From an uncultured Lachnospiraceae bacterium (GTDB taxonomy: Bacteria > Bacillota > Clostridia > Lachnospirales > Lachnospiraceae), in contig CACYWQ010000024.1 of assembly GCA_902778165.1 (NCBI GenBank), positions 1 through 36,597 of the forward strand: a DNA stretch of 36,597 nt. Reading direction: 5' to 3'. This document shows positions 24,000-27,203 of the stretch, in pieces. Within the stretch, counting starts at the first letter, position 1. The number at the start of each line of letters is the position of its first letter. The notes under the pieces are model-generated. The model ran no database searches. It had not been told where the DNA came from and saw only the letters and a list, made by a program, of their open reading frames with translations. The position numbers were made by a program, and so were the translations under genes.

Positions 24000-25841
24000 A
24001 TGTTCGAGGTATTTTCGTTTGATGAATTTAAAGAATTTTTCAAGAAACGCAGCTTTATTGAGTACTCTATCATGGTTGCGGTCACGATAATATCCATATG
24101 GCTTCTTCATGACAGGCTTGAGAACAAAGCCTTACTTAAGGAGTACTCTACACAGTTATCCATTACGGGTGAATACAGCACGGACGGCGGTAAGTCATAT
24201 ACACCCTTTGACTCATACAGCGATATACCTCTTACCAGAATCGATGATCTGACCATTCGGGGCACTTTCAATCAGGATATCAAAGCGGGTCATAAGATAT
24301 ACTTATTCCTCAATTACATAGACGCAACGGTCTATGCCAATGAGAATATAGTATATACATCGGATCCTTCGGTTGCTTATTGTTGGGATGCGATTGATTC
24401 GGTGGCCTTCGGCCCTTATGACGAAGTTAAGATAGAACTTAAATCCAGAAGAGCAACGATATATAACGTTGCGTTTAAGCAGTTCCTTGACAGGATGTGC
24501 GATTCGACCAAGAACGAAGTCTTGCATCGCATGCTTCGTAAGGACATAGTCAAGCAGATCGGAGAACTGATCCTTCTTGTTATAGGCGTGTTGGTGATAC
24601 AGAGTTATTTCGAGACACAGCGTAACGAAAGAGTAGGTTCCGGAATCCTATCCTGCGGCTTATGTATCATAATCGGAGCGATATCATGCTTTATCAATGC
24701 CGATTATATAACCTTACTGCTTCCGCAGTTTGAACTTCTTGAGTATATAGATTCCCTTACACAGATATACATGGTGGTATTTGCCATGTCCTATCTTAGA
24801 AGATATATGCAGGAGAAGACCAGTAAGACATATTCGGGTGTTGTACTTGTAGTTGCTTATAACATCACCCTGATATATATGATATGGAGAACTTTCTCCA
24901 CGGTATCGGGAAGCGTATCGATGATCCCGATTGCCATCTTGGGTGTTGTGACAATACCCTATTATGTGTTGCTGCTTGCCAATGACTTTAAGTCACATCG
25001 GGATAAGACCACAAGAAATGTCGGAGTAAGTGCGGCATTCTTGCTTCTGTGTGTCGTAATAGAACTTATATATTATCTGATTACGGGTACATACATAATC
25101 AATATTCTTGAGATAGGAATGTTTGGATTCGCAGTAACTCAGTATATAGTTATCACGGTTGAGAATCTTAAGGTTAAGAGGGATGCTTCAAGAGCAAGAG
25201 AACTTGAGAATGAACTGATGCAGGGCAAGATCAATGTTATGGTCAGCCAGATCCAGCCGCATTTCATGTACAATGCCTTAAGCACCATAAGGGCATTGGT
25301 AAATAAGAATCCCGAAGAAGCAAGGACGGCAATCGATTTCTTCACCAAATACCTGCGAGCCAATATGGATTCGTTAGCGGTTAAGGGATGTATCCCATTT
25401 AGGAAAGAGATGGAACATGTGGAGAGTTATCTCTACATAGAGAAGTTAAGGTTTGGCGACAAGCTTAAGATAGAGTATGACATAGAGGCGGAGGCATTTG
25501 CCATACCTGCCATGACGGTGCAAACCCTTGCCGAGAATTCGGTTAAGCATGGACTGCTTGCCAAGGAAGACGGAGGTACACTTATAATAAGAAGCCGTGA
25601 GACGGCTAATTGTTATGAGGTAATGATAGAGGATGACGGTGTGGGATTTGACACCAACGCAAGACAGGATACGTCAAGGACTCACGTTGGAATAGAGAAT
25701 TCCCGTAAGAGACTTGCAGCCATGTGTGGCGGTACATTATCAATAGGCAGCAAGATCGGAGCTGGTACGACGATTACAATAACGATCCCCAAACAGACTA
25801 TCAGAGACAGCTCGGGTATCATAGAGATGATGCAATCATAA
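24000..25841 (+). CDS. LytS/YesM-type sensor histidine kinase
   Basis: Membrane sensor kinase, 613 residues. A first membrane helix lies near 20-38, then an extracytoplasmic sensing domain (about 40-185). Seven hydrophobic segments follow (about 190-390), arranged like a 7TMR-DISM sensor. The His_kinase domain has QIQPHFMYNALSTIR with phosphoacceptor H421. The ATPase domain shows AENSVKHG, DDGVGFD and GIENSRKRL. It has its own promoter and lies 21 bp upstream of the response regulator, which should be its partner but is broken. The signal is unknown. Confidence 0.92.
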   Translation: MFEVFSFDEFKEFFKKRSFIEYSIMVAVTIISIWLLHDRLENKALLKEYSTQLSITGEYSTDGGKSYTPFDSYSDIPLTRIDDLTIRGTFNQDIKAGHKIYLFLNYIDATVYANENIVYTSDPSVAYCWDAIDSVAFGPYDEVKIELKSRRATIYNVAFKQFLDRMCDSTKNEVLHRMLRKDIVKQIGELILLVIGVLVIQSYFETQRNERVGSGILSCGLCIIIGAISCFINADYITLLLPQFELLEYIDSLTQIYMVVFAMSYLRRYMQEKTSKTYSGVVLVVAYNITLIYMIWRTFSTVSGSVSMIPIAILGVVTIPYYVLLLANDFKSHRDKTTRNVGVSAAFLLLCVVIELIYYLITGTYIINILEIGMFGFAVTQYIVITVENLKVKRDASRARELENELMQGKINVMVSQIQPHFMYNALSTIRALVNKNPEEARTAIDFFTKYLRANMDSLAVKGCIPFRKEMEHVESYLYIEKLRFGDKLKIEYDIEAEAFAIPAMTVQTLAENSVKHGLLAKEDGGTLIIRSRETANCYEVMIEDDGVGFDTNARQDTSRTHVGIENSRKRLAAMCGGTLSIGSKIGAGTTITITIPKQTIRDSSGIIEMMQS

Positions 25842-25862: not shown

Positions 25863-26587
25863 ATGAGAGTAATTGCAGTAGATGATGAACAGATAATCTT
25901 GGATGATTTCGTGGAGATGCTTAAGGGCATGGGTGAGGTATCAACGGTTGAGGGCTTCACCAGTTGTGACAAGGCCCTTAAATATATAAGCGAGAATGAA
26001 GTGGACGTGGCATTCCTTGATATTCATATGAGAGGAATGGACGGTATTACACTTGCCAAGAGGGCCAAGGTGATTCGCCCTTCGCTTAATATCATATTCT
26101 TAACGGCATATCCGGAATATTCCCTTGATGCCATGAAGATCCATGCTTCGGGCTATCTTGTTAAGCCGGCCATCGAAGAGGATGTCAGAAGAGAATTAAG
26201 AGACTTAAGAGTTCCACCGGTACCTGAGGGAGGCAGCAGGCTTAAGGTTAATTGCTTCGGCAATTTCGAAGTCTATATAGATACATATCCCTGTCCATTC
26301 AAATACATCAAGACTAAGGAACTCTTCGCTTATCTTGTAGATAGAAGAGGGGCGTTCTGTTCTAACGGTGAGATCTTAGCGACCTTATTAAAGAGAATAA
26401 GCTTGAAGACGTCATCAATAAGAAGAAGGGTATGATACGTATCGTACCGGAACTTATAGAATGCGATTATTACAGGTGGATAGAGGGTGATCCCGTAGCG
26501 ATCAATGCCTTTGCCGGCGAGTATATGAGTCAGTACAGTTGGGCTGAGGCGACTCTTGCGGGCATAGAGAGCAAGAATATCCAATAA
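25863..26587 (+). pseudogene. Response regulator with SARP-like output, frameshifted and internally deleted
   Basis: The receiver domain is complete: D7/D8, phosphoacceptor D53 (FLDIHMRGMDG), T81 and K101 (YLVKP). After a linker, the DNA-binding domain starts LKVNCFGNFEVYI and runs to FCSNGEILAT. The frame then goes out of register and stops at 26433-26435, after 190 residues. The lost frame resumes from 26381 to the TAA at 26585-26587, reading DLIKENKLEDV and then the family-like ending ECDYYRWIEGDP, GEYMSQYSWAE. The middle of the HTH-containing domain (roughly 20-30 residues by comparison with intact relatives as I remember them) is absent. A deletion whose length is not a multiple of three would explain both. 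A sequencing error alone would not explain the missing helices. Confidence 0.8.
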
Positions 26588-26710: not shown

Positions 26711-26977
26711 ATGATAGCAAAAGAGAAGAAGACAGACATTATCAACCAGTATGCAAGAAAGCCCGGCGACACAGGTTCACCGGAAGTACAGATAGCTGTA
26801 CTTACAGCTCGTATCGCAGAGCTTACAGAGCATCTTAAGAGCAATCCCAAGGATCACCACTCAAGACGTGGTATGTACAAAATGATAGGTAAGAGAAGAG
26901 GACTTCTTGATTACCTTATGAAGACAGACCTTGAGGGATACAGAGCGCTTATCGAGAAGCTTGGTATCAGAAGATAA
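26711..26977 (+). CDS. rpsO: 30S ribosomal protein S15
   Basis: An 88-residue primary binding protein of the 16S central domain. The family sequence is clear: [25 protein letters not shown], the H-D-H-H-S loop KDHHSRRG, and [16 protein letters not shown] lies before the ATG. It is followed by its own terminator and then pnp, the order conserved across bacteria. Confidence 0.98.
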
Positions 26978-26989
26978 TTGTGTGCAAAT

Positions 26990-27021
26990 ATGGGGACGGA
27001 ATTAATCTGTCCCCATTTTTT
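26990..27021 (+). terminator. rpsO terminator
   Basis: ATGGGGACGGA (26990-27000) pairs with TCTGTCCCCAT (27006-27016), 11 pairs including one G-T wobble, with a 5-base loop and a TTTTTT tail ending at 27021. It lies 12 bases after the rpsO stop. Confidence 0.92.
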
Positions 27022-27025
27022 CGCT

Positions 27026-27157
27026 TGATAGATATACCCCGAGACCACTTATAAGCACATGGGGAAACGGCCGCGACTTACATGCATTAAGTCCTAAGCG
27101 CGCCTACGACCTGGGGCGAACACCGTGTCCTTATAAGTAGTTTCGGTTCTTCTATCA
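27026..27157 (+). ncRNA. Large structured leader element upstream of pnp (unassigned)
   Basis: Long-range arms pair across 132 bases: TGATAGA (27026-27032) with TCTATCA (27151-27157), and the 27039-27055 arm with 27130-27146, including an identical CTTATAAG core and one G-T wobble. Inside, CAC (27056-27058) can pair with GTG (27125-27127). A second hairpin at 27069-27104 has the perfect stem GACTTA/TAAGTC extended by CGC/GCG and GGC/GCC. The interior is conserved-looking and GC-rich, unlike a random spacer. A weak promoter (TTGATA at 27025-27030, TTATAA at 27049-27054) overlaps the left arm. It may be a regulatory RNA for pnp; I do not recognise a known family. Confidence 0.55.
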
Positions 27158-27162
27158 GGCGA

Positions 27163-27179
27163 GTTATAAGATTTATAAC
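27163..27179. promoter_or_regulatory. Short palindrome before pnp
   Basis: GTTATAA and TTATAAC, perfect 7-bp inverted repeat around GAT, 24 bases before the pnp ATG. It could be a small hairpin next to the ribosome binding site (GGAGG) or a protein site. Confidence 0.45.
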
Positions 27180-27203
27180 AGTATAGAAGAATGGAGGAAT
27201 TGT

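Follow-up and report, generated by a model that had tools for sequence, protein, structure and literature searches.

A leader hairpin with a near-invariant core before pnp in Lachnospiraceae, a candidate for RNase III-family cleavage and PNPase feedback

In E. coli, RNase III cuts a hairpin in the pnp leader, PNPase degrades the new 3′ end and pnp mRNA falls, according to excerpts of PMC7866481 and PMC9032294. An excerpt of PMC5872136 describes for Streptomyces, too, a hairpin that follows the rpsO terminator, precedes pnp and is cut by RNase III, and for Actinomycetales the excerpted part of PMC2864571 presents Actino-pnp (RF01688) as a conserved structured RNA of pnp that is cis-regulatory and not a switch. 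The locus analysed here suggests that Clostridia share the control of pnp by a leader hairpin that has been proven for E. coli and reported for Streptomyces.

The window, meaning the whole stretch of 36,597 nucleotides that was analysed, belongs to an uncultured Lachnospiraceae bacterium and contains an rpsO-pnp spacer at 26978-27203. From its 5′ end, this spacer runs through an intrinsic terminator, a long hairpin (27021-27162) and a small hairpin to GGAGG and the pnp start (Table 1). On the + strand, the 143-nt element 27021-27163 has a folding energy of -61.0 kcal/mol, its shuffles averaging -35.2 (z = -6.7; 0/200 shuffles as good), while the - strand reaches z = -3.4; the covariance model R1 scores the element at 60.3 bits on the + strand and 28.7 bits on the - strand. 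Within the window's genome the element occupies a single locus, directly 5′ of pnp, the sole second R1 match being the antisense of the same palindrome. A first-pass annotation had described long arms with a wobble that pairs only in + strand RNA, an inner hairpin, a closing pair and a downstream palindrome. All are present. The arms are slightly longer than it claimed (27021-27055 with 27130-27162), and their pairing is broken by an internal loop (6/4) and by the 1x1 mismatch C27046/A27139; the wobble is G27043-U27142; GACTTA/TAAGTC lies at 27075-27080/27088-27093, CAC/GTG at 27057-27059/27126-27128 and GTTATAA/TTATAAC at 27163-27169/27173-27179. Its proposal of a structured RNA in the pnp leader stands for the arms and fails for the GC-rich multi-stem interior as a significant fold, since 27056-27129 folded alone gives z = -0.27 and is equalled or bettered by 69 of 200 shuffles. 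The hairpin before pnp in the window is real, and only its arms exceed chance.

Table 1. Features of the rpsO-pnp region of the window
Feature	Position	Strand	Basis or score
rpsO, 30S ribosomal protein S15, upstream neighbour	26711..26977	+	TIGR00952, 127.7 bits, cut-off 63.65
rpsO intrinsic terminator, 11-pair stem (26990-27016) then T run, abuts element	26990..27022	+	
P1 5′ arm, basal stem, pairs with 27151-27162	27021..27032	+	fold
Internal loop, 5′ side, 6 nt against 4 nt on the 3′ side (27147-27150)	27033..27038	+	fold
P2 core CCGAGAC, pairs with 27140-27146 (GTTTCGG), wobble G27043-U27142	27039..27045	+	
C of the 1x1 C/A mismatch, partner A27139	27046	+	step 8 unpaired in 81/87 rows
P3 5′ arm ACTTATAAG, pairs with 27130-27138	27047..27055	+	covariation
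Variable apical region (GC-rich interior), lineage-specific expansion	27056..27129	+	
3′ strand: P3, A27139, P2 (CTTATAAGT A GTTTCGG)	27130..27146	+	more conserved core strand
P1 3′ arm	27151..27162	+	fold
Small GTTATAA/TTATAAC hairpin, between element and Shine-Dalgarno	27163..27179	+	
GGAGG, pnp Shine-Dalgarno sequence, outside the hairpin	27193..27197	+	
pnp, polynucleotide phosphorylase, 696 aa	27204..29294	+	TIGR03591, 904 bits, cut-off 525

Around the element, the small hairpin recurs at the same place in several relatives and in E. coli K-12, and terminator-like hairpins recur in the rpsO-pnp spacers of relatives. No promoter was found in the window between the rpsO terminator and the element; one promoter-like match lies within pnp. 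Further upstream, at 25863-26587, an ORF of 190 aa that resembles a response regulator overlaps the 51-aa ORF coming after it in a different frame; read by eye, the two are possibly a frameshifted regulator or an assembly error, and they adjoin a histidine-kinase-like ORF at 24000-25841.

The element is new to Rfam as far as the searches of the window and the scanned relatives extend. With Infernal, at gathering and relaxed thresholds, no family reaches its cut-off, in agreement with the annotation, which recognized no known RNA family; the sub-threshold matches, among them a terminator-like one to the L20 leader in the window and some to miRNA precursors in L012, fall far below the cut-offs. 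Literature searches found no description of a Lachnospiraceae pnp leader RNA. The words pnp and polynucleotide are absent from the main texts of PMC8040213, PMC8632094 and PMC11109978, and PMC8040213, by its title concerned with thousands of human-microbiome candidates, could include such a leader. This would be a widespread, apparently undescribed RNA family of dominant gut anaerobes, placed before the gene of a central RNA-decay enzyme.

Relatives were collected with an S15 query in 61 genomes (59 with matches), which yielded 30 loci including the window; pnp follows rpsO in all of them, and a regular expression for the core finds the hairpin in 28 of the 30 spacers, the window's included, and not in L025 and L026. 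The first alignment, A1, has 27 rows, 26 of them distinct, and leaves out L027 with its long apical end. In A1, changes on both sides are seen in 15 of the 25 named pairs, and 91.5% of cells are paired; none of 500 shuffles and no slid control reaches the observed value on any of five measures. The annotation had proposed covariation across Lachnospiraceae spacers as a check, and substitutions breaking both stems as contrary evidence; pairing is kept, and the substitutions preserve both stems. In the basal stem P1 all nine pairs change on both sides and 82.5% of cells are paired, with P1 misaligned in some rows of A1, including that of the window. Of 16 core pairs, six change on both sides and seven never vary, the latter being for that reason uninformative on pairing. 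A wider alignment, A2, comprises 59 of 60 listed rows (L023 dropped), only two of them from the window's genus, while a few other genera contribute several rows each; here 97.9% of core cells pair, seven of 16 pairs changed on both sides and five never vary (0/500 shuffles). These substitution patterns indicate that the pairing of the pnp leader hairpin is under selection.

P1 differs widely in sequence between genera and forms at least five pairs in 65 of 65 folds. Arms from the same sequence pair with a mean of -15.7 kcal/mol versus -8.8 when swapped between sequences; many leaders resemble one another in their P1 letters, which is why the best of all partners is the leader's own arm in only 24 of 65 cases. 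Of the 65 folds, 51 have the larger side of the loop that joins P1 to the core on the 5′ strand. The sequences show an element in which P1 is kept only as pairing, followed by an asymmetric loop, a near-invariant core of P2, mismatch and P3, and a variable apical end.

The near-invariant core reads CCGAGAC-C-ACUGA / UCAGU-A-GUUUCGG and ends a median of 45 nt before the pnp start codon. Defined by at most 6 of 26 letters off, mismatch letters counted too, it is present at 88 of 109 loci, in a set that left out duplicate genomes, L088, loci from other families and all loci chosen by pattern; row counts over 87 exclude L087, a dubious case with a 292-nt loop. A G-U wobble occupies step 5 or the neighbouring step 6 in 87/87 rows. 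A mismatch falls within steps 7-9 in 84 rows, and none of the 87 lacks both a mismatch and a wobble there; in the six rows where step 8 is paired, the irregularity has moved one step (L031, L075, L086) or become neighbouring wobbles (L079, L083, L245). A fewest-changes count on a quick PNPase tree (108 sequences, of which 87 have the core) gives at least 18 changes of the step-8 pair and 16 of core presence. From C/A, either transition restores a pair, U-A or C-G, yet C/U and U/U account for 14 of 88 rows and U-A and C-G for 6 of 88, under a core rule that penalizes C/U or U/U at least as heavily as U-A or C-G and so does not favour mismatch states. Because mismatches outnumber the pairs that an easy transition would produce, we read the pattern as selection that maintains an irregular step rather than given letters. 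The 3′ strand of the core is the more conserved, with 19 changes versus 50 on the 5′ strand (12 pairs, 87 rows). An obligatory irregular step in an otherwise regular helix would make it possible to ask directly which features of a natural mRNA an RNase III-family enzyme recognizes. As a separate observation by eye, two unrelated leader hairpins upstream of pnp in another family (L261 and L263, family f17) also carry a mid-helix wobble and a C/A mismatch.

The apical end behaves differently from the core. The distance between the 13-nt core arms ranges from 25 to 252 nt (median 31, 87 rows); it is 82 nt in the window, with five rows longer, and 39 nt in the closest relative. Three loci upstream of pnp, L229, L241 and L245, have very long apical expansions, with 163, 199 and 252 nt between core arms, and that of L229 is built from repeats that are nearly identical. 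Insertions in the apical end appear to be freely tolerated. Among the collected relative loci no sequence similar to the window's interior was found, and a search of the genome with the 202-nt spacer returned only the window's own copy. The interior is, on these comparisons, a lineage-specific apical expansion and the least conserved part of the element, whereas the annotation, which had set conservation of the interior as a test beforehand, had suggested a riboswitch-like, multi-stem plan. The high conservation in a leader and the multi-stem interior of the window would suit a riboswitch or other ligand-binding regulator, but an interior that is unconserved and folds at chance level, the lack of a conserved junction or apical loop in what is a continuous helix with small irregularities, and the failure to find behind the hairpin a terminator, a Shine-Dalgarno-masking switch or any other expression platform make such a regulator exceedingly improbable. 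The striking interior of one sequence can be what matters least.

R1 detects the element in 201 of the 299 family genomes searched (E <= 0.001; 200 of 298 genera), a lower bound since scans of more than 40 genomes apply stricter filters. The order scan gives 33 matches in 295 genomes, 31 from the same family and two others that are weak and not beside pnp; the class scan gives nine in 291, six from the same family and three others that are weak, with no pnp hit in the surrounding stretches. The matches outside the family, in two genomes of the order scan and three of the class scan, score at most 35 bits with no convincing pnp nearby and were set aside; one pair of them is a repeated palindrome. 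In a genome of the same class and another family (G668), a repeated palindromic element occurs in two copies (L280, about 1938-2118, and L282, about 1223-1414), with GACAGGTAC-like flanks and arms CCACTGACAAAG ... TTTTTCAGTAGTCTCGG that resemble the pnp leader core, C/A mismatch included, and no adjoining pnp. It is possibly a MITE-like repeat, and the resemblance may be chance or the source of the core.

About a third of the family genomes score no match. In 30 of these pnp was sought and located in 27, of which six have the core in an expanded or altered hairpin and 21 are without it by the letter rule; some of the 21 carry other long hairpins at the same place. This weighs against the autoregulation proposed below: with 21 of 27 located leaders lacking the core, control through the pnp leader can presumably be lost or replaced in the family. 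The exact pattern occurs in named genomes at 120 loci or more among the matches listed, and 108 of the 120 lie 31-372 nt (median 49) before pnp. Among 80 of the 120 loci classed by title, the pnp-linked ones are mostly Lachnospiraceae and include Blautia, Coprococcus, Dorea, Mediterraneibacter and Eisenbergiella, which we take to be genera of that family. Twelve pattern loci among the matches listed are not pnp-linked: in L199 the sequence ends beside rpsO, and of the 11 others nine are non-Lachnospiraceae and were taken as chance. Viral contigs gave 12 pattern matches, none with pnp and none above 24.6 bits, also taken as chance.

The gene that the element accompanies is pnp. Among the matches listed, 10 of the 108 pnp-linked loci have no rpsO within 500 nt, with at least 910 nt upstream covered, five more being too near an edge to judge; rpsO stands about 1.2 kb away in L047 and about 0.6 kb in L084, and no rpsO match was found in the 1.5 kb covered at L067, L073 and L075. 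The element travels with pnp, also where rpsO is distant. This bears on the idea that it is a target through which ribosomal protein S15 regulates the rpsO-pnp transcript. The element is often located behind rpsO, and S15 leaders can use stacked G-C/G-U pairs, as an excerpt of PMC7247131 reports; its step-5 G-U, however, is flanked by A-U pairs, unlike the stacked G-C of S15 sites, and it lies behind rpsO and the rpsO terminator, not before rpsO. As it also stays with pnp where no rpsO is found nearby, an S15 function is very improbable.

The element is probably a cis-acting pnp leader hairpin of Lachnospiraceae through which PNPase would regulate its own synthesis after an RNase III-family cut in the core. 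The window's genome encodes two RNase III-domain proteins, of 235 and 144 aa, both over the PF00636 cut-off, and one of the two is RNase III (261 bits, cut-off 166). In the proposed sequence of events, RNase III or the Mini-III-like protein would cut the hairpin in the core and the apical part would be discarded; a variable apical end is what is expected of a discarded piece. P2 and P1 would keep the upstream RNA base-paired with the 5′ end that the cut creates on the pnp mRNA, leaving an accessible 3′ end from which PNPase would digest the paired upstream strand, exposing the pnp mRNA to decay; a rise in PNPase would then lower pnp mRNA, as it does in E. coli. The wobble and the mismatch, both obligatory, may fix the place of the cut or the number of strands cut, or may be read by the protein. 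Against this feedback, an excerpted account of Rhodobacter reports that an rnc mutant left pnp mRNA unchanged. In the order's other families, stems reaching 29 pairs, a threshold chosen after the values were known, form in 11 of 25 pnp upstream regions, two of them (L260, L272) with the stem at the far end of the stretch, versus 1 of 24 rpsO upstream regions. Long pnp leader hairpins therefore look general in these folds, the Lachnospiraceae form being one lineage's version. Individual leaders in other families (L255, L260, L272, L275) have very long imperfect hairpins upstream of pnp, with 38-54 folded pairs and unrelated sequence.

An excerpt of PMC5141509 describes the consensus of E. coli RNase III sites as weak at most, and an invariant core is thus not explained by RNase III alone. 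The near-invariant letters on both strands, with their irregular steps, resemble a helix read by a protein, and the window's PNPase has an S1 domain (615-695). The element could then be a binding site for PNPase, via KH/S1, or for another factor, serving to protect the leader or to control translation with no cut in the core. We consider this unlikely: the KH and S1 domains of PNPase bind single strands, and the Shine-Dalgarno sequence lies outside the hairpin, where simple blocking of the ribosome is not obvious.

A further account of the invariant letters concerns Mini-III (MrnC), for which we know of no role besides 23S rRNA end maturation. The core might be a sequence-specific Mini-III site, cut or bound at GACC^A in the 5′ arm with the mismatched C in the central dinucleotide, and Mini-III in place of RNase III would then gate PNPase feedback, a possibility that we entertain only tentatively. 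According to an excerpt of PMC4357697, the phi6 dsRNA site UCGAGACC^UCGCUC, chosen for its high read counts, is cleaved well in vitro by B. subtilis Mini-III; it shares CGAGACC with the core in register, and the cut would fall at the core's irregular step, where the window has ACCA with the C/A mismatch in its centre. Excerpts of PMC5141509 report that ACCA is tolerated by three of the four Mini-III enzymes tested on variants: those of B. subtilis and C. thermocellum retain more than half of their activity, that of F. prausnitzii is about as active on it as on ACCU, or more so, and that of S. epidermidis cuts it poorly. The 144-aa protein of the window's genome, with an RNase III domain only (PF00636, 82.5 bits; 21 bits against the RNase III cut-off of 166), is taken as Mini-III by its size and domain, and no model names it so. 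Of 40 family genomes, 39 encode it irrespective of the element, a profile that does not discriminate. In five family genomes the 23S end stems carry ACCA (four) or ACCU (one), but GAGACC in none. The likeness was moreover found after the fact, the tetranucleotide is short, and core variants in relatives (ACCG, GCCA, ACUU, AUUG) depart from ACCA. The in vitro sites are fully paired dsRNA, unlike the mismatched core, and the sole native substrate named in the excerpts of PMC4357697 and PMC5141509 is 23S precursor RNA. A core dedicated to sequence reading by Mini-III, in which a built-in mismatch limits the cut to one strand or slows it, seems doubtful; if it were true, Mini-III would set PNPase levels in Lachnospiraceae and the leader would link the capacity for RNA decay with the maturation of ribosomes. 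The likeness of CGAGACC to a Mini-III site is offered as a testable lead.

For the cis-acting pnp leader hairpin, which we favour, the E. coli leader chosen for comparison by the annotation proves apt, as the K-12 region has the same layout: a terminator, a long imperfect hairpin with basal stem, asymmetric loop and wobble, a small hairpin, a Shine-Dalgarno sequence and pnp. The two differ in sequence, R1 finding no match in the K-12 region (best score 8.1 bits, E 0.15, inside pnp), and in standing, cleavage and feedback being proven in E. coli and proposed for Lachnospiraceae. The K-12 spacer (L294, 234-449) is also annotated with the antisense small RNA SraG. Streptomyces is a distant lineage and is likened here by description; Actino-pnp belongs to a different lineage too and has no Rfam match in the window or the scanned relatives. 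By its place, by the selection seen on its pairing and by the presence of an RNase III-family enzyme, the Lachnospiraceae element nevertheless is, as judged from these comparisons, a pnp leader hairpin of the E. coli and Streptomyces kind.
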